The notes below the pieces were generated by a model. That model did not search any database. It was not told the DNA's origin and saw only the letters and a list, made by a program, of their open reading frames with translations. This document shows, one piece after another, positions 13,962 to 59,524 of a DNA stretch of 64,000 nt. The DNA is from Amphibalanus amphitrite (taxonomy: Eukaryota > Arthropoda > Thecostraca > Balanomorpha > Balanidae), in NCBI RefSeq assembly GCF_019059575.1, contig NW_024881598.1, forward strand, positions 558,001 to 622,000, given 5' to 3'. Each line of letters opens with the position of its first letter. Positions within the stretch are counted from its first letter, which is position 1. The translations under genes and the position numbers were made by a program.

Positions 13962-15604
13962 ACGAGTAGACCACGTGAAGCCGCCAAGTGCACGCAGCCA
14001 GCAGTCGTTGATGCTGCGCGCAAAAGCTGCTGACCAAATCTTAACCGTTGCAAGTTTTGTCTTTAAGTAGAATTAGACAAAAACACCCGCAAATGGTGGT
14101 TATAAACTCATGAAGTGTGCGAAGGAAGAACTAGGTATTGTGCCAAAGGTCATTTCAGTCACTTTTATATCGGAGTCGATTTCTGAAAGAACCGCGGGCC
14201 GGAACACGATGTAAGTCGCTGATACCAGCCGCGGGCCGGACGTCAGATGGTCGCGGGCCGGATCCAACCGTCACCCACCTGGCCGGATCCGGCCCGCGGG
14301 CGGTATGTCGACCCCTGACCTAGAAGGCCTTAAAATCGGGTATTAATCTCTGCTTTTTGTAACGGCGCACACGCTCGTTTTCTCCGCGACGCGCTAGCTC
14401 CACCAGTGGCGAAACGGCGATGGGAGGGGGGGGGGTCGTACCCGCCCCCCTCGGCCGGCGTGTACCTATGTAGAAAACAAATAGGTCCGGCGAGCAGTAG
14501 CGGCGGAACACCTTCAATTAACCCGCGCCCTGCTGGGGGGGGGTGTTTGAACACCCCCCCTTGTGGTTTTTCGCGAATATCTCAAAAACGGCGGCGCGGA
14601 GCGCCGCCGTTTTTGGTACACCTTATCATACATCAATTCTACACATGTTGTGAAAATTTCAGACCAAGGTCATTCAAGGTCAGGTCACCAGGTCACTTGA
14701 AGTGACCTCACCTCATAAAAAGTTTCAACGTCTGTCATAGCTACACCGAGTGACCGATCGCTTTGAAACTTTCAGCGATTGCTAAGAGCAATAGCATGTA
14801 CAAAATTTATATCTCAGAATTATGATATCGATGACCTAAGGTCAGGTCAATTTTGCGACCTCCCCGTTATAAGTCAATGGGAGAAAATTGAAATGCGCCT
14901 CTTTTGGACGAAAGACATTATAAACACTCCCAAACACTGAACTACAAGTGGTTTAGACACACTGAACATGAAAATGGTGTCCGTGACCCCTGTTTATGCC
15001 CTGAGGTCATCTTAGGTCACGAATGGTATTTAACAGTTTTTCGCAAATAACTTTTGATAGAGGCATACTAGAGCGATGAAAACGCCTTAGATGTGTTCAG
15101 CTCGACGATACGGATCGACTGATATGCAACATGACCCTTTCCGGTCAGGTCATGACCTTGACCTGAGGTCAAATTTTCAAGTTGACCTTTCAAGGTCAAG
15201 TTATAGTTCATTCGATGCGTCTTGACGAGAGGAACACGATGCCGGTAAAAGTAAGCTCGTACAAGGCTTGGGTCAAAAGTTATTGCAGAAAAACTGTTTC
15301 CGAAAAAATCGGCTATTTTTGCAGTTTTTGCCCCCTGCAGCAGGGCCTATTTTAACATGTTAACTGGGGTGGCAAAACCCACCCCAGTGGTGCGGTTTTC
15401 CACCCCAGTCGTCTTGCTTTGCCACCCCAGTGCAAAACAGCCCAAAAGTCTGCCCACAGATATTGGCTGCCGACAATCACGGAGGCGACACATTCTTGGG
15501 GCGAACTCAGCTTGACAGGGGGAAAAGGGCTCACTGAGGCGCCACCACCACCAATGGGATGCCCTCTCACTACTGGGGGCGCCCTGCCGCAACTGTGGCG
15601 CCCT

Positions 15605-15935
15605 ACTTTTTTATAAATTTAGCTTGAATGTTTGAATGGACGGATTGACAGAGCCGGAGCCCACGCTAAGCAGAGCTTGTTGCGTAGACCCCGACCCCTA
15701 CCGTCCGATCGCGCAATTCCGGGTAACGGAATAATTTAGATGCCTAAGTTTAACGTGCCCTTCAAAGCCGGACACAACCTGTCCCACTCAACTGACTTCA
15801 ACTGGCTGCGGCTGCTCCCACCAACCGCAGACCATCCCCGTCAGGAGTCTCAAATATCGAGCACCAGAGCGACTCGAACCCGGGCTCTCACTACCGGGAG
15901 TCCGGTGCTCTACCAACTGAGCTATGGGACTCTCT
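15605..15935 (-). mobile_element. tRNA-derived SINE-like segment
   Basis: Read on the minus strand, 15933 to 15861 has a tRNA-like head: GTCCCATAGCTCAGTTGGTA carries an A-box and GGGTTCGAGTC (15871-15881 inverted) a good B-box. Anticodon and T stems do not pair properly, so it is not a functional tRNA. About 250 bp of unrelated body follows, ending in an A/T-rich tail near 15605-15620. That is SINE layout; no clear target duplication was found. Confidence 0.5.
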
Positions 15936-16224
15936 GATTCGATTGGGACACACTACCGGCAATGGGGCGCCCTACCAGCACTTGGGCGCCTACCACGACT
16001 GAAGAGCCCTATCAACATTCGGGCGCCCAGACACGATTGGGGCGCCACACCACTACTGGGGCGCCAACTGCACCTTTGGGATCCCTATCAGTATCGGCCG
16101 CAAAATTAAATTTGTCATGTGGCTTTGAGACAGGCCGTGTGATCAACAATGGATTTTCAAACGCACGTGCACGCATTGCTTCTGACGAGGGTATTTCCAA
16201 GAGAAAAATCTGGCGAGCGGCGGT

Positions 16225-17115
16225 TTAACCCGCGCCCCGCTGGGGGTCCTGGATTTCCACGCCCTGCTGGGGGGGCGGGGATTTGAACACCCCCCTTCTA
16301 AGTCGGCTCCTGGGCCAAGTAGCGACACGCGGTAAGCGGCATCCGAAAGAACGTCAAAAACCATGACGAAAATACCCACTTGTTATTTTTTAGGTCAGGT
16401 CAAAGGTCAGGTCACCAAAGGTCATCAAAGGTCAAATTTTGTTATTTCAACATTTTTCGAAACTGCCGACGGACAACTCGGGAACCAATAGAGCTACAGC
16501 GCCGCGGAAAGGCGCAATCGATAGCTCTTTTACAGGGCTTTCTGAATAATGTTCTCAGGTTTGACCTCAGGTCAACGGTTTAGCCTCCAGAGTGCAAAAA
16601 CTTCGTTTTCTTCAATAACTTTTGACTCAAGAGAGACACGACAGTATTTTTGCCAGCATGGTGTTCCTCTCGTCTAGACGCGTCGAATGAACTATAATTT
16701 GACCTTGAAAGGTCAACTTGAAAATTTGACTACAGGTCAAGGTAATGACCTGACCGGAAAAGGTCGTGCTGCATATCAGTCGATCCGTATCGTCGACCCA
16801 AACACATCTAAGGCGTTTTCATCGCTCTAGCTTGCCTCTATCAGAAGTTATTAGCGAAAAACTGTTAGATACCATTCGTGACCTGATATGACCTCGGGGG
16901 CATAACGAGGGGTCACGGGTGCCATTTTCTGGTTCAGCGTGTCATGTTAACTCGTAATTTAGTGTTTGAAAATGTTTAGAATGGCGTTCGTCTAAAAGAG
17001 GCGCTTTTCAATTTTCTCCCATTGACTTATACCTAATGGAGAGGTCGAAAAATTGACCTGACCTTAGGTCATCGATATCGAAATTTCAAGATAAAGTGAC
17101 CTCGAGTGACGCCGG
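16225..17115 (-). mobile_element. TTAA element, subfamily A, reverse and truncated
   Basis: Starts with the double-module end (TTAACCCGCGCCCCGCTGGG, second module 27 bp inside). It continues as the reverse complement of 38468 downwards and fades near 17115, with the far end lost. AGGTCA-A-AGGTCA (a direct repeat spaced by 1) is at 16397-16409. It sits inside the hAT-like element 15341-17505. Confidence 0.75.
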
Positions 17116-18319
17116 CTTCTTGGTATGGGAAGGTGTTTATCATGGACGGATCGGGGGGGGGGATTTGAGGGCCATCGGCATAAGCAGTAAAAGTTCTCTG
17201 ACGAAAGGGGGTTGCACCATGCACAGCCGACTTTTGGCTTAATTCTTTCCATGCATCGCCCGAAAGAGCTATGTTAGAAAAAAACTATGCCAACAAAGGC
17301 CTCTAGACACTTTCCCGAAACGTTAGCCCTTACGTACTACCGTCACAAAAAAAGATTCTGAGACTCGATTGCGACGCCCCCCCCCCCATCGAAATGCTGC
17401 GCACAGCAGTATTTCGGTGGGGGGGGGGGGGAGGCGCCCACACAAGAGACAGGGGCGCCACCACTGCCTGGCCACCCCAGTCCAATTGTCTAAAAATAGG
17501 CCCTGCCCTGCAGGCAAAACCGTTGACGTTAGGTCAAATCTGAGAAAATTACTCAGAAAGGGCGTTAATAGGGCTATCGAGTGCGCCTTTCCGTGGCGCT
17601 GTAGCTCTATTGGTTCCCGAGTTATGCGTTGGCTTCTTGGAAATTGTTGACATTCGACCTGGAAATCGGCGAAATTTTGCCTTCAATGACCTCTGGTGAC
17701 CTGACCTTTGACCTGACCAAAAAATTGACCGAAGTGATTTCCTCATTATTTTTGACGCTCTTTCGAACGCCGCCTTCCGCGTATCGCTACGTGGCCCAGG
17801 AGCCGAGTTAGAAGGGGGGGTGTTCAAACACCCCCCCTCCCAGCAGGGCGTGGAAATCCAGGACCCCCAGCCGGGCGCGGGTTAAGGGGGGGCACGGCAC
17901 TGCCGACTTTTGGTCCCATTCTTTCCATGCAACGCCCATAGGGCTACTGTTAAAAGGCCAAAATTTAAGAGGGGAACGGTGCCCCGGTGCCCTCCCCGTT
18001 CCGCCGCCTATGCCGGCGAGGGCACAAGAGATTATATTGTCATTCAACGACCGCGAAAAAAAGAATGTCCGGGACACAAATGATATGGAATGTTACAATT
18101 GTCGGCTCCCAAATACAATAGCTTCACCTGACTGAGTGATCTCATCTGCCATGACTTCAAAAGTTTCGATCATCCATTCCATGCATTAAATTCGTCATTC
18201 ACTTAAGATGGTCTGATATTTCTTCATGGTTTTATTCAATTGAATAAAACCACAACCATTCTGAACCAAAACCACAACCATATTCAATTGAATTAACCAC
18301 ATTAATGTGGTTAACCACA

Positions 18320-20671: not shown

Positions 20672-23000
20672 TTAACCCGCGCATGACTGGGGGGGGGGGG
20701 CTCTACAGAGCCCCCCTCCCGTTTTTCGGCAATATCTTCTAAACCGTTTGACGGATCAACACGAAATTTGCAACAACCTGAGCGGCATCAATTTGACACC
20801 TTGTGTTAAAATTTCAACTTTCTAGCTACCATAGTTTGGCCGGAAATGACGTCAGAGTGACGTCATGTCGGCCGATTTTGATGCAAAATATATAATTACG
20901 TCAAACGCTCTCAGGAGCTTAGTTTTAAAGCTAGATCGAATTTCTTTGCATCAGTGGACTACAAATAGGTACCGTAAAATGGGGTGTTAAGGGACAGTGG
21001 GGTGATAAGGGACAGTTGCGTGGGAAAAACTTTGAGTCATGCTAAGTTCCTAATTTGAGAAGGTTAAATAAAAACTTGAGTGTGATAGTTGACACTGTTT
21101 TGTTCTTGACTATAGGACAAAATGGCATGGTTTTTCATGCAAGTGATTTGGTTAAAAAATGGTTTTGAAAATCATGCTACATTTTCACAAAATTGACATC
21201 TCCAAAACTCTGTGTGTATCACATAAACTAGTAGGTGTATAGGTGAAATAAATGCATAGGTGTATTGTCACATGTATTGCACATGTTTCCTGAAAAACTT
21301 ATACAAATCCACCCATTCATTCATCATCCTCTTCCTCTCTTCTGGACACATGCATATTTTGAGGTGGATGTGGGGAGCTAAGGGACAGGAAATAGAAAAT
21401 AAAAAAATAATATCTAAATATATTTTCATAGTTTTCTTTCAGTAGGCATGGAAAACACCAAATTCCACATAAAATGCTGGCAAGTTCATGCTTTTATCTC
21501 CAACACATCTTAAGCTATATAACAAAACACCTCAAAAGTCCCGTAACACTCTATTTAACAATGATGGGTCAATGAAATGTGATGTCATCATAAAAAGGCC
21601 AAAACAAACAGGGCAACATAATGACAAGTGACTAGCTTCAAAATGGGTTTTTGTTGATGACAGAAGGGTACTTTTTGGTTCTGTTTACCTTATAATTAGC
21701 ACATTTTCCAGAAGCGTAAACTGCATTACATGTAATTGGCTAAAAAGGTCATTAGTTATGAATGAACCTGACTTGTTTTGTGACAGAATATGCAAAACAT
21801 TTCAATAAATAAATTGTGTGGCCTTTCACACTCCAATTGTGAGCATTTGATGACCATTTCTTGGAATAATATGTGTCCCTTAACACCCCACATTGGGGTG
21901 CTAAGGGACAGTGATGAAAAATAATAAAAAATAATATGCATGTATATACCTATTTTTAAAAATTTAATGTAGCAGGCATGTAGAGCACCAAATTCCACAT
22001 AAAATGCTGCTAAGTTGATGCTTCTATCCCCAACCCTTCTTGAGTTATATAGCAAAACACCTCAAAACTGTCCCTTAACACCCCGTTTTACGGTACACGT
22101 ATCTATCAAACTACTGTCTCGATTTTTCGAATTTTTAAAATTTTGAAAAATATATTTTTTATAATTACAAAAAAATATATTTTTTGATTTTTTCAAAAAG
22201 CTTTTGATATTTCGCAAAAACCGGAATATATGTGATAGAAAACACACTGATAAACTACTCTAGCAAGTTTTAGCTCAATACCTTCAAAAATAGCCAAGTT
22301 ATTTGCATTATTGTCAAAATGTTAAAATTATAATTTTTTTTTTTCAAAACCATTTTCAGTACGTTTTTGACATTGCACAGCAATATAAATGGCACCATCG
22401 TGTTCCTGAACGCAAACAGCATCTGATTGGCACCTTTTTGTTGAAAGATTTCATTTTCGAAATTTGACCTTTTCTGACCTGAAAGTGACCTGACCTCCGG
22501 TAAATTCAGCTGAAAATGACCTCAAATGACACAGACGATATTGTTTTCGAAATCTACGAGTAAAATGGACCATAAAACATGCGTTACGTGACCGATCCAT
22601 GATATATAATTTTCGTGACCTAGGATGACCTGACCTTGACCTGAAAAATTCGAAGTAAAAGTCCGGTACCCTCAGGGTATCTAAGGCATATATCAAGGAG
22701 TGCGTAAACCAAAATGAGCTTGATCGGACTTGTCAGCCGGCGGTCAGAGCCTAAATTGTGAACAAGCAAAAATGCTCATACTTTTTACTTTGACCTGATC
22801 TGTGACGTCATCGGTGACCTCGAGGTCAATAAAAACAGGTTTCTCTCGACAGTTTTTTCCAGGGCTATCAGACGCCGTTTGAATTTTGACGATCGGTCCA
22901 GTAGTTTCGGAGATAGGAGGGGAGGGGCTCTGGAGAGCTCCAGAGCCCCCCCCGTCACTCGCGTTATGGAAAATAGGTACCCCAGTCATGCGCGGGTTAA
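20672..23000 (+). mobile_element. TTAA element, subfamily B, split by a TA element
   Basis: Left end TTAACCCGCGCATGACTGGG plus a palindrome G-run-CTCTACAGAG-C-run. The right end has the same module twice, 31 bp apart here (27 bp in the sister copy at 58336-59524; this copy has four extra bases). Without the 20972-22093 insertion the length is about 1.2 kb. Two TGACGTCA sites lie near 20847 and 20858, one near 22803, with clusters of TGACCT near 22465-22640. Confidence 0.88.
20972..22093. mobile_element. Tc1/mariner-type MITE with TA duplication (1122 bp)
   Basis: 26-bp terminal inverted repeats with one mismatch (start CCGTAAAATGGGGTGTTAAG). Flanking TA is at 20970-20971 and 22094-22095. The sister element near 58628 has the uninterrupted sequence. 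Internal copies of the end motif ('ggggtgctaagggacag' near 21893, 'gctaagggacag' near 21376) and a duplicated block around 21485-21550 / 22015-22075 show internal duplication. AT-rich, no transposase. Confidence 0.92.
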
Positions 23001-24550: not shown

Positions 24551-24551
24551 T

Positions 24552-24751: not shown

Positions 24752-26646
24752 AAACTCTTCTACCTCAAACAAAGAGAAAAAGAGCATCGAAAAAGTTCGG
24801 AAACTTCTCTTAGAAAATGGTTACCCAAAACATGTCCTATCTCGAGTTTTAACCCGCGCCCCGCTGGGGGGGGGGGGGGGGGCAGAATCTGCCCCCCCCC
24901 TCCCGTTTTTCGCCAATAACTTCTAAACGCGTTACGCCAACGACGTCAAACTTTCAGTACCTTATCATATATCAATTTGAGACGAGATGAGATTTGAGAC
25001 AATCAATTTGAGAAAATTTGAGCGAAATCTGTTGGAAAATTTTTGAGAAATTGACGTTTTAGTGACGTCATGTTCGCCATTTTCGCCTCAAAAACGGCAA
25101 AATTTCAAACGCCGCTAACATCTTCAATTTTAAAGGAATCAAGACGTAACAAAAAAGGTTATACGTGATTCTACTTTGTCTACCAAATGGCTATCTCGGT
25201 TTTTTGAAAATTTTGGATTTTGGCCCAAATTTTTCAAAAAACTGACTTTTTTGGGAAAATAATTATAAAATCCAAAATTTTGAGTGTATCGAAAAAACCG
25301 GGATATATGTCAGAGAACTGGTCTATGTGCACCTACATACCAATTTTTAGACGAATCGGTTCAAAAATGTGTGAGTTATTCAAAAATTTATGACGTCACG
25401 ACACACAAAAATTTTGAAAAATGATTTTTTTTGGAAGTTCTAGACCTCGTACGGAAACAAAAATAGCACCACTCGATTCGCCGTGAAAAACTGCATCAGA
25501 TAAACACCTTTTTAGGCCTTAACAACCAACTTCAAAATTTGACCTCACTTGAGCTGACCTTGACCTGACCTCGACCTGAAATTCATCCAGAGGTGGTCCA
25601 TATCACTTATTGAGTGTGCCTATTGAGTTCTATGAGTAAAATGACCCATAAAACATGTGTCGCACATGCCCTTTTTTATATTTTGTTTTTGGTGACCTGA
25701 CCTGACCTGACCTTGACCTTGACCTTTGAATGACATTGTATGCAACGAATATTGTCTTGGTAGTCTAAGAACACGTTTTGGGCAATCAGTCTCAGTCCAT
25801 TCTTCGGCAACTACGGTGCAAGGCCGATACTGTAGAAACTTACATTTTGTACCCTTGACCTGACCTTGACCTGACCTCTGACCTACTTAAGCAAAAAAAT
25901 TTGGGCTCTTAAGATCCGCCTTGTTGAGAGCTTTCGATTGCCGTTTTCCCCGTCTTTCTACGACCATCGGTTCGGAAGTTAGACAGGGGGGGGGGCAGAA
26001 TCTGCCCCCCCCAGCAGGGCGCGTATGGCTGAATAGCCCAGCGGGGCGCGGGTTAAGAGAGGCCAAGGCGCCAAAGAACACCAAAAAGCACCCAAAACAG
26101 AAAGATGTAGATGGTTTCCTCTGTCTCCCTTTCATCGATGATCACTTGTTATGCAAAGTCAAGAGAAAAGTAGCCAAGTCAGGTTTGAATATCAATGTAG
26201 CATGGCAAAACAAAAGCAAACTTAAGAATATGTTAGTGCACTCTTCATTCTCGAAGCCCAAAAGCCCGGGCGGACAAAGATGTCATACTTGCAACACTGG
26301 ATTCAAAGGCGACTGCTCACAAAAGAACGTTGTGTACAAAATCTCGTGCAAACTTTGCCAGGAGAAAGGAGAGGAAAACATCTACATTGGAGAGACAAAA
26401 CGCCCCTTACGACTTAGGTTCAACGAGCATATCAGAGACGCAGCCAACCGTACGCCAGAAACCCCCATGGGCGACCATTTTTTAGAGCACCATACGTCAC
26501 ACTCTCAAAATTCTAGCATTCCCCTAAACATCCAAGTCTTGTATAGAGCCAAGGATCACCCCGACCGTAAAATAGCCGAATCAGTGTTTATCAAGAAGAG
26601 ACGTCCTCAGCTGAATAGAAACAGCACTTCCTGGCCAATCTTATGA
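24693..26646 (+). pseudogene. Penelope-like element C-terminal ORF with GIY-YIG endonuclease, interrupted
   Basis: The frame begins within the inverted duplication and reads FKRAIRNSSTSNKEKKSIEK... to HVLSRV at 24850. It then resumes at 26055 as REAKAPKNTKK... and continues to a stop at 26644-26646. A TTAA element (24849-26056) separates the halves; joining at the single TTAA keeps the frame exactly. The second half has a Cys-rich segment (CHTCNTGFKGDC) and a GIY-YIG-type core: VYKISCKLC, then IYIGETKRPLRLRFNEHIRD and a downstream AESVFIKKRRPQLN. This layout is typical of the endonuclease domain that follows the reverse transcriptase in Penelope-like elements. The reverse transcriptase itself is missing, so the copy was 5'-truncated before the later insertion. 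Confidence 0.88.
24849..26056 (+). mobile_element. TTAA element, subfamily C, inside the Penelope-like ORF
   Basis: 1208 bp. The single-module end TTAACCCGCGCCCCGCTGGG has a palindrome G-run-CAGAATCTG-C-run. The far end has the module twice, 27 bp apart. The interior has TGACGTCA near 25069 and 25391 and a 5-bp-period TGACC run at 25692-25727. It carries an intact target TTAA at 25909-25912, which is occupied by another element in sister copy C2. Confidence 0.92.
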
Positions 26647-27901: not shown

Positions 27902-29684
27902 TTAACCCGCGCCCCGCTGGGCTATTCAGCCATACGCGCCCTGCTGGGGGGGGGGGGCAGATTCTGCCCCCCTGTCTAACTTCCGAATCGATGGTCGTAG
28001 AAAGACTGGGAAAACGGCAATCGAAAGCTCTCAACAAGGCGGATCTTAACCCGGCGGCCGCTGGGCCTCCGCGCCACCCGCCGGCCGCTGGGGGGGGGAC
28101 ATATAGTTGCCCCCCCTTTACTTCTGCAACGATATCGTCGCAACGCGAAGAGATAGAGAAGAGAAACTTTGCTCACATCTTTCTGAATACCTAGCCGAGG
28201 TTGTGTCCAAATTTGGTGTCGATCTTATTTGAAATGACTTCACAGTGACGTCATAAGTGAAATTATAGATTTGCGACTCTCATATTCCTCACGATACATC
28301 AGATATTATATTGGACCGAATATAATGGGTCGATTATTGGTCAGAAACTAGATGGAAGTGTAGTTCGATGTTTTAGGATGACAGCAGGTGCTGTCTAGTT
28401 CATTTACAGTTGAGTTTCATGCTCAGCGTCATCAGAAACGGTCCATATCGAAAAACGACAAAACTTTATGACGTCACTGTGACGTCATCTTAGGTGCTAT
28501 AACCACCAAACTTTCCTCAAACATTGCCTAGGTATTCATTTGAAGCTATGCCACGTTTCACGTTCGTAGCTCATCAGGTTTCGGAGATGTTTCACAAAAC
28601 GTAAAGGGGGAGGGGCAACTTTATACCCCCCAGCGGCTCGTGGGTTAAGAGCCCAATTTTTTTTGCTTAAGTAGGTCAGATGTCAGGTCAAGGTCAGGTC
28701 AAGGGTACAAAATGCAAGTTTCTACAGTATTGGCCTTGCACCGTAGTTGCCGAAGAATGGACTGAGACTGATTGCCCAAAACGTGTTCTTAGACTACCAA
28801 GACAATATTCGTTGCATACAATGTCATTCAAAGGTCAAGGTCAGGGTCAGGTCAGGTCAGGTCAGGTCGCCAAAAACAAAATATAGAAAAGGGCATGTGC
28901 GACACATGTTTTATGGGTCATTTTGCTCATAGAATTCAATAGGCACACTCATAAGTGATATGGACCACTTCTGGATGAATTTCAGGCCGAGGTCAGGTCA
29001 AGGTCAGGTCAAGTGAGGTCAAATTTTCAAGTTGGTTGTTAAGGCCTAAAAAGGTGTCTATCTAATGCAGTTTTTCACGGCGAATCGAATGGTGCTATTT
29101 TTGTTTCCGTACGAGGTCTAGAACTTCCAAAATAATCATTTTTAAAATTTTTGTGTGTCGTGACGTCATAAAATTTTGAATAACTCCCACATTTTTGAAC
29201 CGATTCTTCTAAAAACTGGTATGTAGGTGCAAATAGACCACTTCTCTGACATATATTCCGGTTTTTCGATACACTGAAAAATTTGGATTTTATAATTATT
29301 TTCCCCAAAAAGTCAGTTTTTTGAAAAAAAAAATTTGGGCCAAAATCCAAGATTTTTAAAAAACCGAGCTAGCCGTTTGATAGACAGAGTAGAATCACGT
29401 ATAACCTTTTTTGTTACGCCTTGATTCCTTTAAAGATGAAGATGTTAGTGCGTTTGAAATTTTGCCGTTTTTGAGGCGAAAATGGCGAACATGACGTCAC
29501 TAAAACGTCAATTTCTCAAAAATTTCCCGACGGATTTCGCTCAAATTTTCAGGGAACGTGTCAAATTGATGTATGATAAGGTACTGAAAGTTTGACGTCG
29601 TTGGCGTAACGTGTTTAGAAGTTATTGGCGAAAAACGAGAGAGGGGGGCAGATTCTGCCCCCCCTCCAGCGGGGCGCGGGTTAA
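27902..29684 (-). mobile_element. TTAA element, subfamily C, reverse, split by element D
   Basis: Reverse-orientation sister of 24849-26056: double-module end at 27902 and single-module end at 29684. A second TTAA element (28046-28648) occupies a TTAA that is empty in the sister copy. Without it the length is about 1.18 kb. An AGGTC run with 5-bp period is at about 28832-28868. Confidence 0.9.
28046..28648 (-). mobile_element. TTAA element, subfamily D (603 bp)
   Basis: Ends TTAACCCGGCGGCCGCTGGG and the inverse of TTAACCCACGAGCCGCTGGG. The left end has the module twice, 27 bp apart. The palindromic block includes G-run-ACATATAGTTG-C-run. Three TGACGTCA motifs lie inside. The target is 'gatcTTAAgagccc', still intact at 25905-25916. 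Confidence 0.9.
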
Positions 29685-29873: not shown

Positions 29874-30705
29874 TTACATCGTATACCAAAATGTTGGTTG
29901 GTTGGCAAGCATGGTTCGTCGAAGAAGAGCCATGTGTATATGCTGGTGGTCTGAGGAGGGGCCAGGATGACGTGTGTGTGTGTTTAGAGAGGGTTTTTGG
30001 TTCCCAATTTCAATAGATTCTGGTGTCTTAAGGTCTGCTACGTCTTTGCACACTCGCTCAATGTAAATTTTGAATGACCGTGCAGTTATGTTGCTGGATG
30101 GGTGTTGCTGTGCCACGTGGTCGCCGAGAGGTGTGTTGCGAGTTTTGTTTTTGGCGTTTCTGATGTGCTCGTCAAAACGATCCCGGACACGTCGCTTGGA
30201 CTCACCTATGTAAACTGCTGGATTGTCGGGGCACATGTTACACTCAGTTTTGTATACCGCGTTGTTTCTGTGACAACGACCCTCGAGTCCCGCTTCGCAG
30301 GTGGGACAGCGCCTTTGACCAGCCGGGCAGGGAGGGCTCTGTAGAGCTGATTTGGTCAAGTACTGGCTCAGTGTCTTTCCATTGACCCAAGCAACGCGGG
30401 CCTGTAAGCCTGAGGAATCACAGAACACCCCCTCTACCCGGCGGGCCAAAGTGTCATCAATGTAGGGCAGTGATACGTAACTATGTCGTGTCATGCTTGT
30501 TTTTGATGTCTTTGTTCGCTTTCCTAGCTGATGTCTTAGTGTTGTGGCCGGTGGTGTCGCTAATTACTATGTGTCTGGTTCTCTGTATGAGTCGATGTGG
30601 GTATCCATTGTGCTTGAACAAAGTTTCGATTCATCAATATGCTCATTCACAGCATTCAGACTGGCTTCCGACTGTTTGGTCACTCCGATGTATTTTATCT
30701 TTTGC
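29874..30705 (-). pseudogene. Penelope-like element remnant with GIY-YIG domain, next to the kinase start
   Basis: The minus-strand frame 30494-29874 (206 codons) begins HSYVSLPYIDDTLARRVEGV. It has a Cys-rich block (RRCPTCEAGLEGRC) and a GIY-YIG-like core (VYKTECNMC, then VYIGESKRRVRDRFDEHIRN), ending with ESIEIGNQKPSLN. Upstream, a frame-shifted stretch (HNGYPHRLIQRTRHIV, TSARKANKDIKNKH) extends the homology to about 30705. It is a different family from the element at 24693-26646, judged by its different Cys-rich block. It is frameshifted and lacks the reverse transcriptase. Confidence 0.82.
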
Positions 30706-42192: not shown

Positions 42193-42880
42193 TTAACCTG
42201 CGCCCCGTTGAGGTCTGGCAGGTTTCAGGTCCTGTTGGGGGGGGGGGGGGGACAAAGGCCTCTTCATTGTATCACCGGAACCAATTGTCGGATCGGAAAA
42301 ATTCAAACTGCATTCGGAAGATCTCATCGAGATGAACAAGTTACAATCTCGATGACCTCGATTTTTGACTTTTGACATCACATAAGATCAAAATAAGCAA
42401 ATCTGTCCAACTTATAATGATGTGCAGTTTGTCATTAAAATCTAGGTTTCTTAAATGAGTTTCGATATGATGAATATTAGGTATAGATCTGACCCGTGGA
42501 TGTCATCTTAATGGATATGACCTGTTACGTTACGATAGAGGTCAGCCTCGACCAATCACTAAACACATGCCTAAATCGTATGGAACGGCATGGCTGAATT
42601 GTGAATATTTCAGTATTTATGATGTCTTCAAATCATACATTTGAAGCCGCAGCACCCTCGCCGACCATTTTTCTTTGACCTATGACGTCACGGGAACGAA
42701 AAAAGTCCAATTTTACCGGTTTTCGATGACAAACCTTTTATTACGTAAAAGTGACTTTAATCAGGTAGAAGCGACGACAACCTTCATATTTAGTCAAGAG
42801 GAGATGTAAAAGTAGCATAATATTAGCATTGCCCTTTACAAATTACAAGTACAAACCAGCATGTATAACGCCTTTTGGGG
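42193..42880 (-). mobile_element. TTAA element, truncated (subfamily H1)
   Basis: Starts TTAACCTGCGCCCCGTTGAG. The module GTTG(A/G)GG recurs exactly 27 bp inside (offsets 14 and 41), followed by a long G run. TGACGTCA lies near 42684. No matching far end is found; related interior sequence stops by about 42880. Confidence 0.6.
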
Positions 42881-44035: not shown

Positions 44036-44940
44036 AACAAAAATAATTAAGGTAAATTAATTAAATTAATTTACCTTTAATCATAGATGTGAAAGTACAC
44101 CGGTTCTGTTCTTTCAAAAAAAAAGTACAAATACCTCTCGAAAATGAGAACGTCATTAGAACAGTTGCCATACAGCAACTTTTTTACAGGGTAGGTGGGC
44201 CCATAGAAAATCTCTCCCCTGTGCAAATTTGTTGACTCGTCCTTTATTGTTTTGGTGAGTATCAAAATGTTAACATTTGCTAAAATCGGTCAAAAGTTGC
44301 CGCGGGTTAATAACATCGATCGGGGGTCTGCGCCAGCTTACAACCGACGGGGGGGGGGGGGCGCCCCCCTGAGGTTTCGAAAACGAAGCAAGATAGCGAC
44401 AAGCGGTAAACGGCATGGGGTACGCACGGACAAGGCCTACAATTTTTACTCAGGTCATTTTCAGGTCAGGTCAAAGATGACGTCACAGGGCTAAAAAAGT
44501 CCAAATGGCGGCGCTAGATATGGAGAGTTTTTCTCGAATAACTTTCGAATTAGCCAAGCTAGGAACAAACTAAGGGCATCATCGTGATCCTCTCGTCAAT
44601 CCGCATCGAATCATACATATGTTGGCCTCGAAAGGTCAAGGTCAAAGGTTAACCTCAGGTCACGTGACCTCGAGGTCATCATGTATATCATTCGATGCGC
44701 CTTGACGAGCTGAACACAATAAGACCATCCGCGCGGCTGTATCTCGTTCCTGATAGGAGTTACTGGTAAAAACCGTTGGTGACATTTGATGACGTCACAT
44801 GGACCTTACAGCTGCCCAGCAGCAAAACAGGCCTCAAGGTAGTGAAGGTTGATCGTATATGAAGTCATGTATGGCATATGGGGCCATTCTGACGTGTTTT
44901 AGTGGAAAAAACAGGGAGTTGATTTTCCCCCATTGACTTA

Positions 44941-46443: not shown

Positions 46444-46935
46444 ATGGTATTTACAATGGCTATATCTCTTGGAGCTTTAGGGATATTTTGTTGATTTTTG
46501 GCATGTGTAAAGGCATTAAGACATTTCCTGAATCCTGACGCATATTTAGGTTTAAAAAATCCCCAAAGTTCACAAATATTTCCAAAAATCTTAAGATTGA
46601 GTTTGAAAACCTCAGGATCTTGAAAGTTTATATTTTGAAAGTTGGAGATAGCCATTTCCTTTGCATTTTTTTTCTTCTTAAACCTACGGCTTGTTTTTGG
46701 AATCTCTAGCTTGATATCCTGATTGCTTATGACCAGGGCTGCGGGGCCGATGGATTTTCGGGTGACTCAGACTCCGACTCGGACTCCGGCTTCAAAAACT
46801 GACTCCGACTCAGACTCCAGCTGTGACTCCGGACGTTTTTCTTAACCCTCGCCAGACAAGGGCCTTTTTCATAACACGGACGGCGAGGGGGGTTGGTACG
46901 ACCCCCAGTCTTCTAGCCATTGGCTCCTGTGACAC

Positions 46936-48086
46936 TTAACCCGGCAGGCGGTGGGCCTCCCGGCCACCTTCCGCGCAGTGGTGGAGTGCATTTTTTGCCC
47001 CCCCCCCCCCGTTTCTCCGAAACTACTGGACGGATCCGCAAAATTCAAACGGGGTTCGAAAGCCCTATCAAATTTGTCGACGGAAACCAAATTTCATTTA
47101 CCTCGGGGTCACCGATGACGTCACAGGTCAGGTCAAAGACAAAATGTTTCACCGTTCACGGGTCTTCTTAGGGAATGCGCTATAACATCGAGTAAAAAGC
47201 ATTTTGTCGAAAATCAGCGATAGGGCGTCAGTTGCCTAGCACATATGTTGCTATTAGAGGTCACTGATACTACCAGGTCAGGTCACAGGTGAGGTCACCA
47301 AGGGTCAGCACATGAACCCAACTTTACTAAGGTTGTGTGGTGCATGCTTTATGACCCATTTTTCATTTCCAACTCAATGGTGATGGTTATAAGACCATCA
47401 GGTACGGTTTAGGTCACTTTCTGTTGGAGGTCAGGTCAAGGTCAGGTAAAAAAGGATCACATTTCAAAGTTGATAGTTTTGCATAAAATGGGTATTGATT
47501 CGATGCAGCTCGTCACGGGGAGTCTAATGGTGGTCTTTGCGCTATGAGGTCTAGAATTGCTAAAAATTGAGTTTGAAAATTTGACGTCATGAATTTTGAA
47601 CAGTTTTTCGCTATACCTTGGCCAAAAAAGAGGTATGGATCTCAAATTTGGTATGTGGATAGAATGCGGTAAAGAATATCATATATGTTCCGTTTTATTA
47701 TTTTTCAAAAATCTTTTTTTAATTTTTTTTGGGTCAAAATCCAAAACTTTCAAAAATTCGAGATAGCAGTTTTGTAGCCCTGTTAATTCTACACTTTTTA
47801 TGTCTAAAATATTGTTCTATATCTCTAAAGCTGTAGGCGTGACAGATCTTCCCGCGAAACCTTTTTTTTGGGTCGAAAATGACAGAAATGACGTCACTTC
47901 GACGTCATTAGCAGCCAACCTATCATAGCCTTTGGAAAATTTTGGTCACAATGTACAAAAGCTATTCACGGGAGGGTACTGAAAGTTTGGTGACGATCGG
48001 CGCAGCGGTTCTGGAGATATATCGTAAAACCTAAGGGGGGGGGGGGAACAAAAAAAATGCCCCCCCCGCACCGCCTGGAAGGTTAA
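46936..48086 (-). mobile_element. TTAA element, subfamily K (1151 bp)
   Basis: TTAACCCGGCAGGCGGTGGG on the left, module repeated 27 bp inside; the right end is the inverse of TTAACCTTCCAGGCGGTGCG. Palindromic blocks GCATTTTTTGCCCC / GGGGGAACAAAAAAAATGCC at the two ends. TGACGTCA near 47114, 47581 and 47888. Confidence 0.9.
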
Positions 48087-48250
48087 GAAACACCAGATTA
48101 ACAGGTAGGTGGCCCCATAGAAAATCTCTTCACTGTGCAAATTTGTTGACCTATTGACTCTAGGTCAATATTTAGGGGGTGTTATTTATTGGTATATTTT
48201 GGTGAGTAAAAATGTAAACATTTTGCTAAAACCGGTCAAAAGCTTTTGGC
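48087..48250. repeat. Repeat shared with 44150-44300
   Basis: 'gtaggtggccccatagaaaatctct...gcaaatttgttgac...ttttggtgag...gctaaaaccggtcaaaag' matches 44190-44300 closely. Its wider element is not defined. Confidence 0.55.
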
Positions 48251-49713
48251 ATAAAACTTTTGATGTAGCCTTCGCCCGAGTGGGGGGGGGGGGGGGCTGG
48301 CCACAACTGCCAATTTTTGCGCGTGTAAAGAAAACCGCGCCGCGAAACTTTGTATAGCTTATCATACATCAATTTTGCATCATGTGTGGAAGTTGTGACC
48401 CCAGGTCACGTAAGGTCAGGTCACCAGGTCAAGTTAAATAACCATACCTCTAAAAGACTTTGTGATTCTGTCATTCCTTCAGTTTATATCCAAGAAGTTT
48501 GAAACTCGGGTTTTACACAAGGAAATCAGTAGGTATGAACAATTTGTTTATCTCGGAATTTTAATATCGGCGACCTAAGGTCAGGTCAATTTTGCGAACT
48601 CTCCATTATAAGTCAATGGGAGAAACTTGAAATGGTCTTTGTTTGGCCGAAAACACCCTCAAACATCGTGAAATAGGTAAATATGACACACTGTACCGGA
48701 ACATTGCACCGGTGACCCCTTTTATGCCTCTGAGGTCATCTCGGGTCATAGCTTTTTTACAATAACTTTAGATAGAAACATGCTAGAGCGATGAAAACAC
48801 CATGAATGTGTTCAGTTCAGCAATACGAATCGAATGACATGCAACTTGACCTTTTCCGTGACCTTGACCTGAGGTCAAATTTTCAAGTTGACCTTTTCAG
48901 GTCATCCTATAGTTCATTCGACGCGTGTCGACGAGACAAACGCGATGCCGGTAAAATCAGCGTGATATAATTTTGGAGTCCAAAGCTATGATGCGAAAAC
49001 CTTTTCCGCAAAAACGTCCAATTTTGATAGTTTTTGCCCTCTGGAGGCTAACCCGTTGACCTTAGGTCAAATATGAGAACATTTTTCAGAAAGGCTTTTG
49101 AAAGAGCCTATCGAATGCGCTTTTCTGCAGTGCTCTAGCTCTATTGGTTCCCGACTTATGCGCCAATTTGTAAAAAGCTGTCAAAATCGGGTACAAAAAT
49201 CATGAACAATTTATCTTTGGTGACATTCAGTGACCTCAGCGAAGACCTGATGAAAAATGACCCAGATGATTCTGAAAGTTCTTGTAGCGATCTATCTATT
49301 GCTTTTTACCGCGTCTTTCTAGCTTGGTTACTTTCCGAGATAATCTGGTGTGGCCAAAAAGGGGCTTTTTTTCAATACAATATAACATTTTCATGTGCAC
49401 ACTTTGGTTTTACACTTAGCACACCTTACATTACACATTAGGTAATACATTGCATACTTCCATTTCACACACATTTTTTCCTGCCCCGCCCCGCATCGCC
49501 CCGCGAAATTACACATATTCCCGTTCTCGCTGGGGCGATGCCCCAGGCCGCCCGATAGGTTGGCGAGCCGCGCGCCCGGCCGGCCGGCCGACCCTTTATG
49601 GTGTCGGCCTCCGGTTAGCCGGGTTGGGTTAGGGGCGGGCAGGACAGCCAAAAAGGGGCTTTTTGGCCCACCATGGCGAAGTTGGCTGAGAGGTCCACCC
49701 GGGCGCGGGTTAA
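48250..49713 (+). mobile_element. TTAA element, A/E-related, left end lost
   Basis: Interior follows subfamily A (48350-49300). The right end is TTAACCCGCGCCCGGGTGGA inverted, with CGCCATGGTGG 27 bp inside. A 276-bp insertion with an 18-bp duplication sits at 49371-49646. No clear left TTAA end. Confidence 0.7.
49371..49646. mobile_element. Retro-insert with 18-bp target duplication
   Basis: GCCAAAAAGGGGCTTTTT occurs perfectly at 49353-49370 and 49647-49664. A long perfect duplication is typical of target-primed (LINE/SINE) insertion. The insert has an AT-rich half and a GC-rich half (gcccggccggccggccgacc) with no family recognised. Confidence 0.65.
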
Positions 49714-50224
49714 GATTGAGCAAAAATAAAGCACCAGTGAACTCAGCATGTCCGTGTGCACCGAATGGTTTACTTTCTTACTAGTTAAATTGAACTTAAA
49801 TTTTTTTTTAAACATTAAGTGAACTTCAAGAAATATTGAATTAAGTTCAAGTTAATCAAAGTGCATCATACCGCACGCCATTCTACTCGGCTGACCACAT
49901 GGAACACAATGACACCATTTTTGAAGCTTTAGCCTCATTGTGTGTCAAGTTATTAGCAAAAGCGTATTTTGACCTCAGTTGACCTCATTTGACCCGACCA
50001 TAGCGGTATTGCAGCATGCAAACACCAGTTAGATGTAAACTAAGGTAGTACAACACAAAACGTTGGAATGGAGCACACATCTCTCATATTTTTACTATTG
50101 AAGTCATCCGGGCAAATTTCCTTAGAATTTGTCGTGACCTCTATGTAGATGACCTCAGGTCACCCGAATTCGAAAAACCGGAATGCATATGATGGCACTC
50201 GGTGAGCTTTTCATGTCCTGCAAG

Positions 50225-50730
50225 CAGGGCTGCGGAGTCGGAGTCGGAGTTGGAGTCGGTCGGAGTCGACAATTCTGCCCGGAGTCGGAGTCGGAGTCGC
50301 CAAAATCTTACCGGCCCCGACTCCGGAGTCGGAGGAGGTAACGCTGTATGGCTCAAAGTAGTGTACTGCACCTGTTCGATTGCATTGTGCTCGAAATTGG
50401 ATTTTGCCGAAAAAAGTATATTTTGCTGTTTTGGACGAACGTGTTTACGAGCTAAAGAAAAGCTAAAGAAAAGCTCGTAGCTAAAGAAGCAGAAAACTGT
50501 GAAATCCCCAAAACCTGCTTTTTAATTCTGCATGTTATTTTGTATGCATATTTGCAACGCAATGCCTTGGAACGCACAAGAGTTTCAGGCAAGATAAAAA
50601 CATCTCCATTATGAACTTCAATATCGTAATATATATTTTAATAGAACCGTCCGGAGTCGGAGTCGGAGTCGATTTTTAAGTCGGAGTCGGGGTCGGAGTC
50701 ACCCTAAAATCCATCGAGTCCGCAGCCCTG
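50225..50730 (+). mobile_element. hAT-type (GGAGTC)n MITE, intact (506 bp)
   Basis: Ends CAGGGCTGCGGAGTC and GACTCGATGG-type sequence closing with CCGCAGCCCTG. Perfect 8-bp CCTGCAAG at 50217-50224 and 50731-50738. GGAGTC repeats lie at both ends with an AT-rich centre. Confidence 0.94.
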
Positions 50731-51689
50731 CCTGCAAGTTTGAATCAAATCGATGAACAATCTAGATTTCATTAAAAAAAGGTTATTTTAGTGTCATTTT
50801 GACCACGTACCGGTTTTTGTGACCTTGTGACCTGACTGGTCACTGAAACCCAAAACTTCCAGGACACGTCAGATGATTGCCCCAAGCTGTTTCTAAAATT
50901 TGGTGGCGCTACGTACCGCGGCATTCACGCTACAAGCGAAAAATTCTGTAGTTTTTACCGCTAATCTTATCAATTTTATCCTGACCTTGTACCGTTTTTT
51001 TTTGACCTGGTGACCTGACCTAAAGTGACTGAGACCTGAAATTTTCAGGAAAGGTGTCAAAAGGCTGCCCCAGAGGGCATACCAAATTTGGCGGCTTGTT
51101 ATTCGCGAAAAACCTTAGGGGGAGGGGGTTGCATCAACCCCGCTCGCCTGGCGAGGGTTAAAATTCATATGATAATAAAGTTCTTTGTGCAGATGCTTTT
51201 ATTTTGCCTGAAACGAGCTTTTGTGTGTGCCCCAAGGCCCTGCATTGCTTCAAAATGCATTAAAAGATAGTATGCAGAATTAAAAACAGGTTTTGGCGAA
51301 TTCGCCGTCGTCTGCTTCTTTCGCTAAAAACAATCGTTCAAAACAGGAATATGAGTTTTTCGACAAAATCTGATTTTGAAATTTCAACGAACGTAGGATT
51401 GCCGAGCAAACAGGTGCAAGGCATGACGCTGAGCCATGCAGCGATAGATCCAACTCCGAAGTCGGAGTCGGTAAGATTTTGGTGACTCTGACTCCGGGCG
51501 AAACTGTCGACTCCGGCCGACTCCAACTCCGACTCCGACTCCGCAGCCCTGCTTTTATGCTGTCCTGATACCCTTTGCCACCCCTCTCCCCTCCAACGGG
51601 CCGCGGGGAAGGTTTCAGTAGGTTCTAAGCTGGCCGCATTGTGCAAACAATACTACCATTTGTCTTGGCGATCATCACACACGGGGCGC

Positions 51690-52689: not shown

Positions 52690-53718
<1,029 letters not shown>

Positions 53719-53982
53719 GTGGCAGCCGTGGAGCGGAAGGGCGGCTACAACCAGCAGTGCGACGTCTGGGCGGTGGGTATCACGGCCATCGAGCTGGCCG
53801 AGCTGCAGCCGCCCATGTTCGACCTGCACCCCATGCGCGCCCTCTTCCTCATGTCCAAGTCGGGCTTCAAGCCGCCACAGCTGCGCGAGCGCTCGCGCTG
53901 GTCGTCCGCCATGCACTCCTTTGTGAAGGTGGCGCTCACTAAGAACCCCAAGAAGCGGCCGACGGCCGAACGGCTGCTGGAG
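53719..53982 (+). CDS. MAP4K3: MAP4K3/5-type kinase, coding exon 6 (residues 186-273)
   Basis: Acceptor gctgtcag|GTG and donor CTGGAG|gtgggt, phase 0, 88 codons. Encodes the rest of the C-lobe: [40 protein letters not shown] and the closing [28 protein letters not shown] is a signature of the MAP4K1/2/3/5 group. In other families this region is split over several exons, so introns have probably been lost here. Confidence 0.95.
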
Positions 53983-54717
53983 GTGGGTGCTCGCCGCCGC
54001 CGCGCAGCCCGGCCTCTGCTCTGGGGCGGAACATGCGCCAACGTGTGCTGTCAACAGTAGATGCTGGTTGAGAAAGCCAAATGGGGTCCCTGGCTTTCAA
54101 TTACTGGTTTGGGTACTCACAACATCGGGAATTGCCTCAATTTGGAGATATTTAATTTTTAATTCTGCAGTTTTTGGATTCAAAGGGGCCAATACATTTG
54201 AAATTTGAATGCCCCCTTAGACTGTGTGACATCAGCGCGGATGTAGCGATTTTTGAATCTTTTACTCAACCCTTAGAAGAATCATGGAAAAAGACAGTTG
54301 TTGCTGTGGTGATATATACTGCCTTGCGCGCAACATCCGTCGCACTTTTAAGATACCAAATTATAATTGCTTTCAAATGACGTCATAGAAACAGCGGAGG
54401 CCCCCAGAAATAAGCACAAATAAAAGTATAACATCTAAAAAGAAACAGTGAATATTTTTTTGTTGAAATTTGGTAGATATTTTTGCTCTTTCTGAACCAC
54501 GATGCATCACTTGTTTGCCAATTTATTATTATTTTTTTTGAAGTAAGGAACTGGGAGGGTCCCTTTATCGGAGTGGGGCAGGTATTGGCTTTCGGATGAC
54601 CTTATGCAGGATCTCCGGAAATTATTTGCCCCTCCATCAGATCGCCGCCTAATTAATAAAAAAGAGCCCCCGGGTCGTGGTTTATTTCGCGATTTTACTA
54701 TCCGCCACCCCGTCATA
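53983..54717. other. Start of intron 6, unassigned
   Basis: No recognisable repeat. TGACGTCA occurs near 54379. Intron 6 runs to 57558 and holds a TA element and a TTAA-type element. Confidence 0.5.
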
Positions 54718-56180: not shown

Positions 56181-57104
56181 TTATCCCGCGAGTTGCTGGG
56201 GGGGGACGTTAAACGCCCCCACTTTTTTCGCCGGGCCATAGCATAAAAACGGCGCGTCGCAGGCGCGCCAAATTTTTAATACCTGTAGGGAATTGATTGA
56301 AGTTTATTGTGACAAAGTTTCAAAAAAATCGGTCGGAAATTTTTTGAGATATCGAAGTTTTAGTGACGTCATGATTTCTGAGTTTTCGACCAAAAACGGC
56401 ATATGTTCAAAAAATCATATAAAATCACAGAATAGACATACAGTCATGCCGTAAACGCCATTAGACTGCCAATACCATGAACAATCAAATGGCTATCTTC
56501 GATTATTGATTATCGTTCCGCATTTTCCAAAATCTTGAACTGAATCTTGGCAATTTCTCGTGACTACTTCACGACCATGATACATGCATTTCTTAAATTG
56601 AACTTTTTGAGCCAAACACGTACACATTTGATAAAATGAATGTCACCATCGTGTTCTACGCCCCAAATTACCCATAAAACATGTGTCACAGGCTGCGAAT
56701 ATCAGTTTTGATTTTCGGGGATATGTGCCTACCCGGTTGACCTGACCTTGACCCTGACCTATGCTTGACTGACCCCTACATGGAGCTGACACTCTTGTAG
56801 GCCTTATATGATGGATTGTGCACCGTTTTGACAACGTTTATGACGAGAGGCGCCCATTGCGAAGCCCTGAAGTCCATGTTACTGGAAGCCCGATTTCAGG
56901 TGTTTGACCTGACCTTGACCCGACCTGTGACCTCAAAATTCAACTTTAAAGTACTCATCGGAAGCGTCTCGTCGCGTTCTTTCGTTTGCCGCCTCGTGCG
57001 TTTCGCTGCGCCTATTGATTCTCGAGTTATCGGCTGGGGGCGTTTAACGCCCCCCCCCCCAGCAAACGGTGGGTGGCGAAATACCCCAGCAACTGCCGGG
57101 TTAT
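56181..57104 (+). mobile_element. TTAA-family element, subfamily J, with TTAT flanks
   Basis: 924 bp. Left end cccgcgaGTTGCTGGGG with palindrome G-run-ACGTTAAACG-C-run. The right end has TTGCTGGGG twice, 27 bp apart, then ..cgggTTAT. The four flanking bases are TTAT on both sides (56181-56184 and 57101-57104) as a direct repeat. TGACGTCA near 56363; TGACCT run near 56738-56765 and 56908-56935. Confidence 0.88.
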
Positions 57105-57465: not shown

Positions 57466-57558
57466 GCTCAGATTCACTCCAGAGTCGGAGACGACCCTGG
57501 TGGCGCTGAGCTGGCCGCCGGAGCTGTGACCCTGACCCCGAGCTGTGTGCGGCGGCAG

Positions 57559-57675: not shown

Positions 57676-57905
57676 GTGAGTGTTCCGCCGCCCGGGGGGG
57701 GGGGGGGGTGACCAGCCGGGGGAGCGAAGGACCGCCGCCGGGAGGGGAGGGGCAGGGGAAGGTGACCGTCGCTGGGTGAGGTCATCCGAGCCGCAGTCAC
57801 CGCTCCGAGGCTGATCGCAGCCCGCTTCTCTCTGTCTTTCTCGTGTCTCTGTCCTATGTATCACGTTTAAAATGTGCGTCATGTGATAACAAACATACTT
57901 ACGTG

Positions 57906-58103
57906 CAACTGCAGACATGTGCATGGATCCGAGTGATGGATCTATGATCTCACTGGATCTCAAGCAAAAAATTATAATCGGATCTATGATCCCTACGGAT
58001 CTTTCGATAAATTAAAGAGCTGGACTATGATCCTGTCAAATCCGAGATCATGATCTGCGAGATCTGATCCCAGATCCATTTTCTCGGATCATGCACATGT
58101 CTG
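57906..58103. mobile_element. hAT-type MITE (198 bp) of GATC-rich sequence
   Basis: Inverted ends around CAGACATGTGCATGGATC and GGATCATGCACATGTCTG; the left end has six extra bases. Perfect 8-bp CTTACGTG at 57898-57905 and 58104-58111. The interior is repetitive GATC/ATGATC. 58112-58335 is unassigned, except that 'agggtgtccggaaagtcctg' near 58299 resembles a mariner end. Confidence 0.85.
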
Positions 58104-58335
58104 CTTACGTGTTTCCATGCTCTGATTGTGAGGTTGGATAAGGTTTATGGTCTACATTGGTACTTATGCTGCTGTGCATTATGCACTGGTTGTATTTTCC
58201 AAATAAAGTCAGCACAGAAGGTTCTCATTTACACAGGTTTACACAGCTTTGGCGCTGGTTCTAACAACATTAGATGTTAGCTTTTATCTGATGATCTATA
58301 GGGTGTCCGGAAAGTCCTGGCGCTTTTTAACTTTT

Positions 58336-59524
58336 TTAACCCGCGCATGACTGGGGGAGGGGGGGGGGGGGCTCAACAGAGCCTCCCCTCCCGTTTTTCA
58401 GCAATATCTTACCGTTTGACGGATCAACACGAAACTTGCGGTACCCTCAGCGGCATCAATTTGACACCTTGTGTTAAAATTTCAACTTTCTAGCTACCAT
58501 AGTTTGGCCGGAATGACGTCAAAGTGACGTCATGTCGGCCGATTTTGATGCAAGATATTGAATTACGGCAAACGCTCTCAAGAGCTCAGTTTTGAATCTA
58601 GATCCGTTTTCTTTGCACGAGTGGACTACAAAAGACACGTAGCTATCAAACTGCTATCTCGAATTATCAAAATTTGAAAATTTTGAAAATATATATTTAC
58701 AATTACAAAAAAAATATATTTTTGATGTTTTCAAAAAGTTTTTGACTTTTCGCAAATACCGGAATATATGTGATAGAACACACTCTGATGAACTACACTA
58801 GCATGTTTTAGTCCAATATCTTCAAAAATAGCCAAGGTACTCGCATTATTGTCAAAATTTTACAATTATATATTTTTCAAATCCATTTTTCAGTACGTTT
58901 TTGACGTCGTACAGCATTATAAATGGCACCATCGTGTTCCTGAGCTCAAACTGCATCTGATAGGCACCTTTTTTGTTGAAAAATTTCGTTTTTAAATTTG
59001 ACCTTTTCTGACCTGAAAGTGACCTGACCTCCGGTAAATTCAGCTGACAATGACCTCAAATGACACAGACGACACTATTTTCGAAATCTACGAGTAAGAT
59101 GGACCATAAAACATGCGTCACGTGACCGATACATGATATACAATTTTCGTGACCTAGGGTGACCTGGCCTTGACCTTAAAAATTCGAAGTAAAAGTTCGT
59201 TACCCTCAGGGTATCTAAGGCATCTATCAAGCAGTGCGTAGACCAAAAATGAGCCTGATCGGACCGGCGGTCAGAGCCTAAATTGTGAACTAGAAAAAAT
59301 GTCGATAATTTTTAATTTGACCTGACCTGTGACGTCATCGGTGACCTCGAGATAAATGAAAATAGGTTTCGCTTGACAGTTTTTCCAGGGCTATCAGACG
59401 CCGTTTGAATTTTGACGATCGGCCCAGTAGTTTCGGAGATAGGAGGTGGGGCTGTGGAGAGCCCCCCCCCCCCCCCCCCCAGTCACTTGTGTTATGGAAA
59501 ATACTCCAGTCATGCGCGGGTTAA
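58336..59524 (+). mobile_element. TTAA element, subfamily B, intact (1189 bp)
   Basis: TTAACCCGCGCATGACTGGG on the left. On the right the module ATGACTGG / GTGACTGG occurs twice, 27 bp apart. Two TGACGTCA sites near 58513 and 58524 (each within 1-2 bases of the consensus spacing seen at 20847/20858) and one near 59331. Provides the empty site for the 20972-22093 insertion. Confidence 0.93.

Follow-up and report, generated by a model that had tools for sequence, protein, structure and literature searches.

TTAA elements in the window

We examined a 64,000-nucleotide stretch of the Amphibalanus amphitrite genome (assembly GCF_019059575.1, contig NW_024881598.1, positions 558,001 to 622,000, forward strand; hereafter the window), which holds a series of transposable elements and isolated element ends, most of them bounded by TTAA. 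Each complete element has two unlike ends, i.e. a single end, in which a 10-bp module is present once, and a double end, in which a second copy of the module lies further inward, usually at an offset of 27 bp. This arrangement is known from the Trichoplusia ni piggyBac transposon, and we find it in many subfamilies whose modules differ. The elements and ends are listed below in window coordinates; fractions give the matching bases between the two module copies.

13890–13961, minus strand: unpaired single end of K type, just beyond the span reported in the initial annotation
14518–17885, plus strand: element A2, single end 14518, double end 17885 (27 bp)
16225–17093, minus strand: older A right-half fragment, double end 16225 (27 bp, 9/10), 81% identical to A1 reversed
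20672–23000, plus strand: element B1, single end 20672, double end 23000 (31-bp offset)
24849–26056, plus strand: element C1, single end 24849, double end 26056 (27 bp, 9/10)
27902–29684, minus strand: element C2, double end 27902 (27 bp, 9/10), single end 29684, holding nested D
28046–28648, minus strand: element D, nested in C2, double end 28046 (27 bp, 10/10), single end 28648
31111–31190, plus strand: decayed double end, 27 bp tied for best
35957–37155, minus strand: element E, double end 35957 (27 bp, 7/10), single end 37155
37300–38469, plus strand: element A1, single end 37300, double end 38469 (27 bp, 9/10)
42193–42270, plus strand: H1 double end (27 bp, 7/10), partner not found
44307–44380, plus strand: H2 double end (28 bp, 8/10; 27 bp, 7/10), partner not found
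46842–51161, minus strand: element L (4.3 kb), containing K, decayed double end 46842, single end 51161
46936–48086, minus strand: element K, double end 46936 (27 bp tied for best), single end 48086
49640–49713, minus strand: unpaired double end (27 bp, 7/10)
56181–57104, plus strand: element J, single end 56181, double end 57104 (27 bp, 8/10), TTAT flanks
58336–59524, plus strand: element B2, single end 58336, double end 59524 (27 bp, 7/10)

All ends named in the initial annotation were read on both strands of the window, with bases numbered from the first one following TTAA, and bp 7–16 of the 16 double ends were compared with the sequence at each offset from 12 to 45 bp. The 11 resolved pairs (A1, A2, B1, B2, C1, C2, D, E, J, K, and L) all have one single and one double end, as had been described, the inner module copy being weak in K and L. 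No partner was found in the window for the double ends at 42193, 44307, 31111, and 49713, or for the single end at 13961. TTAA flanks 10 of the 11 coordinate pairs examined, and likewise the corrected A2 pair (14518/17885). Insertion at TTAA is directly visible where D lies in C2 and C1 represents the empty site: C1 has one TTAA there, and 158 of 163 bases are identical across the joined site. Element J, listed originally as a TTAA element, has TTAT at both flanks instead and looks like an insertion into a non-canonical target.

At 11 of the 16 double ends no other offset matches as well as 27 bp, and at two more (K at 46936 and the decayed end at 31111) 27 shares the best score. The double end of B1 is best at 31 bp, which beats 27, as the initial annotation had noted; its claim that this is the only exception does not stand, with H2 best at 28 bp (8/10) and one match lower at 27 (7/10), and the decayed L end at 46842 unclear (5/10 at 27, 6/10 at 18). 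When offsets are extended to 60 bp, E becomes best at 46 bp (8/10) because of its C run, and 27 is second (7/10).

Two positions assigned to A needed correction. The end at 14518 had been counted among those with a 27-bp offset, and is a single end. The end at 16225 is indeed a double end at 27 bp, but it belongs to a separate, older fragment inside A2. The two halves of A2 match A1 closely (14518–15340 is 95% identical to A1 1–797, and 17506–17885 is 97% identical to A1 790–1170), and the copy is interrupted from about 15340 to about 17506 by about 2.2 kb that hold the older fragment. An element with two double ends at 16225–17885 was considered and rejected, as comparison with A1 resolves it into pieces of two A copies; this apparent exception dissolves because 14518 and 17885 are the ends of one interrupted copy.

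A shared offset across subfamilies

A PF13843 profile search of the genome returned 116 matches, of which 39 distinct transposase places were taken as 42 loci (L001–L042; three places twice). Local statistics were drawn from the window and L001–L040 (344 kb in all, with three places present twice; identical ends entered the count only once), and these loci are no random sample because they were chosen for holding piggyBac genes. A G-run/C-run pair within 60 bp is found at 61 of 299 TTAAC[CT] sites. The G run starts either 17–20 bp (28 ends) or 43–49 bp (30 ends) from TTAA, with three outliers (23, 32, and 57), and these two peaks indicate two classes of ends that differ by about the claimed distance, with no module being assumed.

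The window and L001–L042 together yield 35 double-like ends, which fall into 17 subfamilies at 75% identity (19 at 80%). Twelve of the 17 double-end subfamilies match at offset 27 with at least 7 of 10 bases, while 2,000 shuffles give a maximum of three at any one offset. The signal is not carried by the G run: over bp 7–13, from which that run is excluded, identity reaches 67% at 27 and never exceeds 35% at the remaining offsets. The inner module also resembles its own outer module (mean 7.3/10) more than the outer modules of other subfamilies (4.6/10), a value that none of 10,000 permutations reached. The shared 27-bp offset is not due to chance.

A search of the 807.5-Mb assembly extends this result. 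The pattern used leaves the gap free (TTAACCCGCG-6-TGGG-gap-TGGGGGG, gap 10–40) and detects only subfamilies with its tip and with TGGG in both modules. It returned 6846 + 6970 = 13,816 matches, and the reversed pattern returned none genome-wide. Offsets of 29–49 account for 403 matches and offsets of 9–25 for 173, so at least 13,240 (95.8%) lie at 26–28 bp. In the first 100 of the 13,816 matches listed, all from contigs C1 and C2, the offset is 27 in 77 cases, 26 in 21, 29 in one, and 35 in one. The genome-wide check of spacing proposed in the initial annotation, run here with one pattern, gives no wide scatter, but its statement that the modules are "always" 27 bp apart is an overstatement, as spacings of 26, 28, and 31 bp occur as well.

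One could ask whether the double end is a neutral relic of one ancestral 27-bp tandem duplication, its spacing not being selected. A single ancestor with such a duplication could underlie all subfamilies, and the partial repeat at double ends spans bp 1–16 rather than the module alone. However, the modules have changed between subfamilies, mostly at bp 7–12, yet the inner and outer copies still match, and neutral inheritance is disfavored because this match is kept while the subfamilies diverge. At least 95.8% of the genome-wide matches stay at 26–28 bp; T. ni piggyBac is also at 27, and there an addition of 5 bp to the right end (RE) lowers transposition by about 50% according to the available text of PMC7351741. 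We consider a neutral origin distinctly unlikely, and selection on the spacing the better account of these data.

End anatomy and comparison with known systems

The ends follow one plan: a single end runs tip, module, and palindrome, and a double end runs tip, module, 17-bp spacer, module, and palindrome. The module is bp 7–16 (10 bp), and a 17-bp spacer therefore places its copies 27 bp apart. Tips read TTAA-CCC and rarely CCT, with CCC in 17 of 17 double-end subfamilies and CCT at the single ends of E and K, at 13961, and in H1; only the third C is a free observation, because the ends were collected as TTAACC or TTAAC[CT] and the first bases are built in. Across the 17 subfamilies bp 7–12 of the module are variable and bp 14–16 are mostly GGG, which is at odds with the earlier view that the modules differ completely. 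Beyond the module, the G run forms the left arm of a palindrome that lies behind the module or, at double ends, the inner module, and whose core differs between subfamilies. In the C elements its center is at bp 28 (C2 single end), 53 (C1 double end), and 35 (C1 single end), the last owing to a long G run.

Two further motifs recur in the subterminal 60 bp across subfamilies. A sequence of about GGTTTTTCG follows many single ends, and ATATCTC or ATAACTC, often with an AAACGGC stretch, follows many double ends.

The same plan is found in T. ni piggyBac (left end LE35, right end RE63). Measured on the end sequences given in PMC3078864, its right end matches 10/10 at offset 27, i.e. the offset of the window elements, which bears out the likeness to piggyBac suggested in the initial annotation, and its palindromes are centered at bp 25 (left) and 53 (right), compared with 28 and 53 in the C elements of the window. 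Both systems have TTAA-CCC tips, a 10-bp repeat at bp 7–16 with a palindrome behind it, and a second repeat copy 27 bp inward, at one end only, after a 17-bp insertion; their transposases also fall on one side of the tree described below. The window elements differ in the letters of the module and palindrome, in palindrome arms made of long G and C runs where the T. ni palindrome has no G run, and in forming many subfamilies of miniature inverted-repeat transposable elements (MITEs) at very high copy number, with spacings of 26, 28, and 31 bp in addition. The available text of PMC7351741 describes RE63 as carrying a 17-bp insertion plus a sequence duplication, terms this "a puzzling arrangement" and the end asymmetry "an enigmatic feature," and reports contacts of the transposase core (DDBD) at bp 7–16 and a dimer of the cysteine-rich domain (CRD) on bp 17–33. 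By analogy with these contacts, the module of the window elements stands where the DDBD would touch T. ni piggyBac. Elsewhere the T. ni asymmetry is described in terms of 19-bp repeats that are separated from the two terminal repeats by 3 and 31 bp (PMC10140906).

Other TTAA elements resemble the window elements less closely. The piggyBat transposon of Myotis lucifugus also belongs to the piggyBac superfamily, uses TTAA, and has asymmetric ends, with several dimer sites at one end and a tetrameric transpososome (PMC11707139, PMC13405395, as far as available). By contrast, its left-end repeats are 44 bp apart (motifs at bp 11–16, 55–60, and 99–104) and its right end has no such palindrome in the text available (PMC11707139), and the tree places its transposase apart, on the opposite side. 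Coral CMITEs are TTAA MITEs, with one family linked to a piggyBac-like element and with families more similar internally than at their termini, but the accessible part of PMC2872659 describes no double module, spacing, or palindrome for them.

The long G and C runs that form the arms in many copies invite another view, namely that the palindromes act as single-strand structures (hairpin or G-quadruplex) and that the spacing serves this structure. We regard this as unlikely, given that the palindrome core is specific in sequence and depends on the subfamily, being alike at both ends in the A, C, J, and L034 types. Moreover, the palindrome of T. ni piggyBac lies at the corresponding position, lacks a G run, and is the published site of the CRD dimer (PMC7351741).

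Transposase genes between matching ends

The initial annotation had suggested a search for a piggyBac-like transposase gene between such ends, and we find these genes at six of the 42 loci. L028, L030, L031, L034, L041, and L042, which represent three families, score 214–267 bits with T. ni piggyBac and 70–110 with piggyBat, whereas the other 36 loci score higher with piggyBat. In a tree of 38 rows, the six loci group with T. ni piggyBac, apart from the 17 other loci drawn, with a branch support of 100/100 (piggyBat forms a long branch there, and both it and T. ni piggyBac are represented by partial sequences taken from alignments); neither the tree nor the bit scores place these double-ended loci with piggyBat. 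A single end and a 27-bp double end surround the transposase at all six. The outer flank of the single end of L028 is CTAA, and the end pair used for L031 is 2555/6531, the automatic pairing having chosen a larger surrounding element. Because the arrangement is that of T. ni piggyBac, the membership of the six loci in piggyBac is not in doubt. The transposase, which had been expected to be related to piggyBac but unknown, is thus related as proposed, with the same single and double ends, and is not unknown: it is piggyBac itself, on the T. ni side.

The proteins are consistent with this placement. L034 and L031 both carry DDE_Tnp_1_7 (PF13843) between matching ends, and align better with piggyBac (6x67; 2e-66 and 8.9e-79, respectively) than with piggyBat (9c0f; 3.5e-18 and 1.1e-30). 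The reading frame of L034 is 673 amino acids long and has, besides PF13843, a C-terminal Cys/His string in the order of piggyBac. Read from the sequence, L034 and L031 share the order C-x2-C ... C-x2-C-x4-C-x2-H ... C-x2-C of a piggyBac-like CRD; only the last part of the L034 CRD aligns to piggyBac, weakly, and the L030 frame stops without the string. D233, D314, and D414 (L031 numbering) are invariant in 15 sequences and align with TIDE, TCDN, and GVDT of piggyBac, and we take them to be the DDD triad.

Deletion derivatives tie MITEs to these genes. The MITEs L042:271–1218 and L031:6528–7706 are 88.6–91.2% identical to the L042 and L034 elements in their outer parts but have no coding middle, which makes them deletion derivatives of transposase-bearing elements. 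At L042:271–5185, the MITE (271–1218) adjoins a transposase-bearing element (1215–5185) with one TTAA in common. Links also exist between the window and the loci: L028 contains a nested copy with 96% identity to J, K and the L034 interior are 73% alike over 709 bp, and the L double end is 81% similar to the L030 element over 68 bp. Interior pieces are common to families with different ends, and many AGGTCA/TGACCT half-sites lie in interiors (14690–15200, 16390–17100, and the C elements).

The window elements very likely belong to several piggyBac families of the T. ni side, most of them as non-autonomous (MITE) members. Kolobok and Sola3 also use TTAA duplications, so that one of these superfamilies, or one not yet named, might move the elements, with the likeness to piggyBac due to convergence. 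TTAA duplication is indeed not confined to piggyBac, e.g. it is reported for Kolobok (PMC6004289), and most window subfamilies lack a known transposase-bearing copy. This explanation is nevertheless extremely improbable, as six loci have a piggyBac transposase between the same kind of ends, two MITE families derive by deletion from piggyBac elements, the third base is C in all 17 double-end subfamilies, and the positions of module and palindrome agree with those of T. ni piggyBac.

At four loci on the piggyBat-like side (L001, L027, L036, and L037), one end but not the other has a palindrome immediately after its tip, which resembles the piggyBat left end (PMC11707139). Ten transposases searched against the window with tblastn gave no match at E 0.01, Rfam gave none in the window at gathering thresholds, and no transposase relatives were confirmed in viral contigs.

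Proposed explanation

We propose that these are piggyBac families of the T. ni side that keep the LE35/RE63 plan of ends, with the spacing of the double end selected through two transposase dimers, and we give this reading a probability of about 0.9. A second, inner dimer would be the likeliest reason for the geometry, and we infer the phased binding of the transposase from published work on T. ni piggyBac. Binding to module plus palindrome is published for T. ni alone, and the second dimer on the T. ni double end is itself a model there (PMC7351741). The catalytic (outer) dimer would take both tips, cutting and joining there, while a second, non-catalytic dimer would occupy the double end, at its inner module and palindrome, and help draw the two ends together. 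A spacing of 27±1 bp would fix the position of one dimer against the other, in register, and it is this register that would lead selection to hold the spacing. The sequences of module and palindrome could then change jointly with the transposase while the spacing stays.

Several observations weigh against this explanation. Five of the 17 subfamilies do not reach the threshold at 27: two are at 26, one at 28, and one at 31, and the fifth is L, whose representative is the decayed window copy and was counted as a failure, its other copies being at 27 (9/10). The L034:8595 subfamily, counted among the 12 at 27, sits at 26 in the genome listing, and its 7/10 at 27 is thus probably a match of the G run. 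Among the first 100 matches listed, the subfamilies with CCCTGGTGGG and CCCCACTGGG modules are fixed at 26 bp, with nine matches each (e.g. contig positions C1:281085 and C1:489365). A long-armed palindrome is present at only 9 of 20 paired ends and at none in E or K, within the finder's search range of up to about bp 57, and the distance from module to palindrome core shifts with the length of the G run (C1 single end, bp 35; B2, bp 37.5). On the piggyBat-like side, the 27-bp double end is found at none of the eight loci with matched ends; 18 were examined, and the absence rests on eight because the ends of the other 10 were not resolvable. Lastly, none of the 39 transposase places (of 116 matches) lies between ends of A, B, C, D, E, H, J, or K, and the window subfamilies are tied to PF13843 transposases only through their shared end architecture.

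The double-end arrangement is already known from T. ni piggyBac; what is new here is that the geometry of 27±1 bp persists while modules and palindromes change. In our searches of an open-licence library we found no report of a 27-bp offset conserved across piggyBac families or subfamilies, or throughout a genome. With the arrangement recurring in many subfamilies, next to transposases from its own clade, T. ni piggyBac is no longer an isolated case, and there is now evidence that this geometry is required and conserved, which the natural variants at 26, 28, and 31 bp make it possible to test. On somewhat better than even odds, we would go further and regard 27±1 bp as a hard structural constant of the two-dimer transpososome across the T. 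ni piggyBac clade, with module, palindrome, and transposase changing together, orthogonal pairs of ends and enzymes coexisting in this genome, and the asymmetry being an ancient requirement. If true, the uneven ends of piggyBac would be no quirk of one moth element. Further pairs of ends and enzymes would also become available besides T. ni piggyBac, a widely used tool for gene delivery.

Other features of the window

A repeat array occupies 501–11557, with units at multiples of about 286 bp and TTAACCATAGCA near each unit start. Two near-perfect inverted repeats (98–99% complementary) lie at 39682–39997 (153-base arms, 10-base loop) and 41018–41302 (141-base arms, 3-base loop). The open frames at 25894–26643 (plus strand) and 29877–30563 (minus strand) have weak GIY-YIG matches under the Pfam cut-off, and we presume that they are perhaps ends of Penelope-like retroelements. 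A MAP4K-like kinase exon is present at 53587–54057; it is closest to MAP4K3 and MAP4K1, and its best match in PDB is MAP4K3 (3.2e-45).

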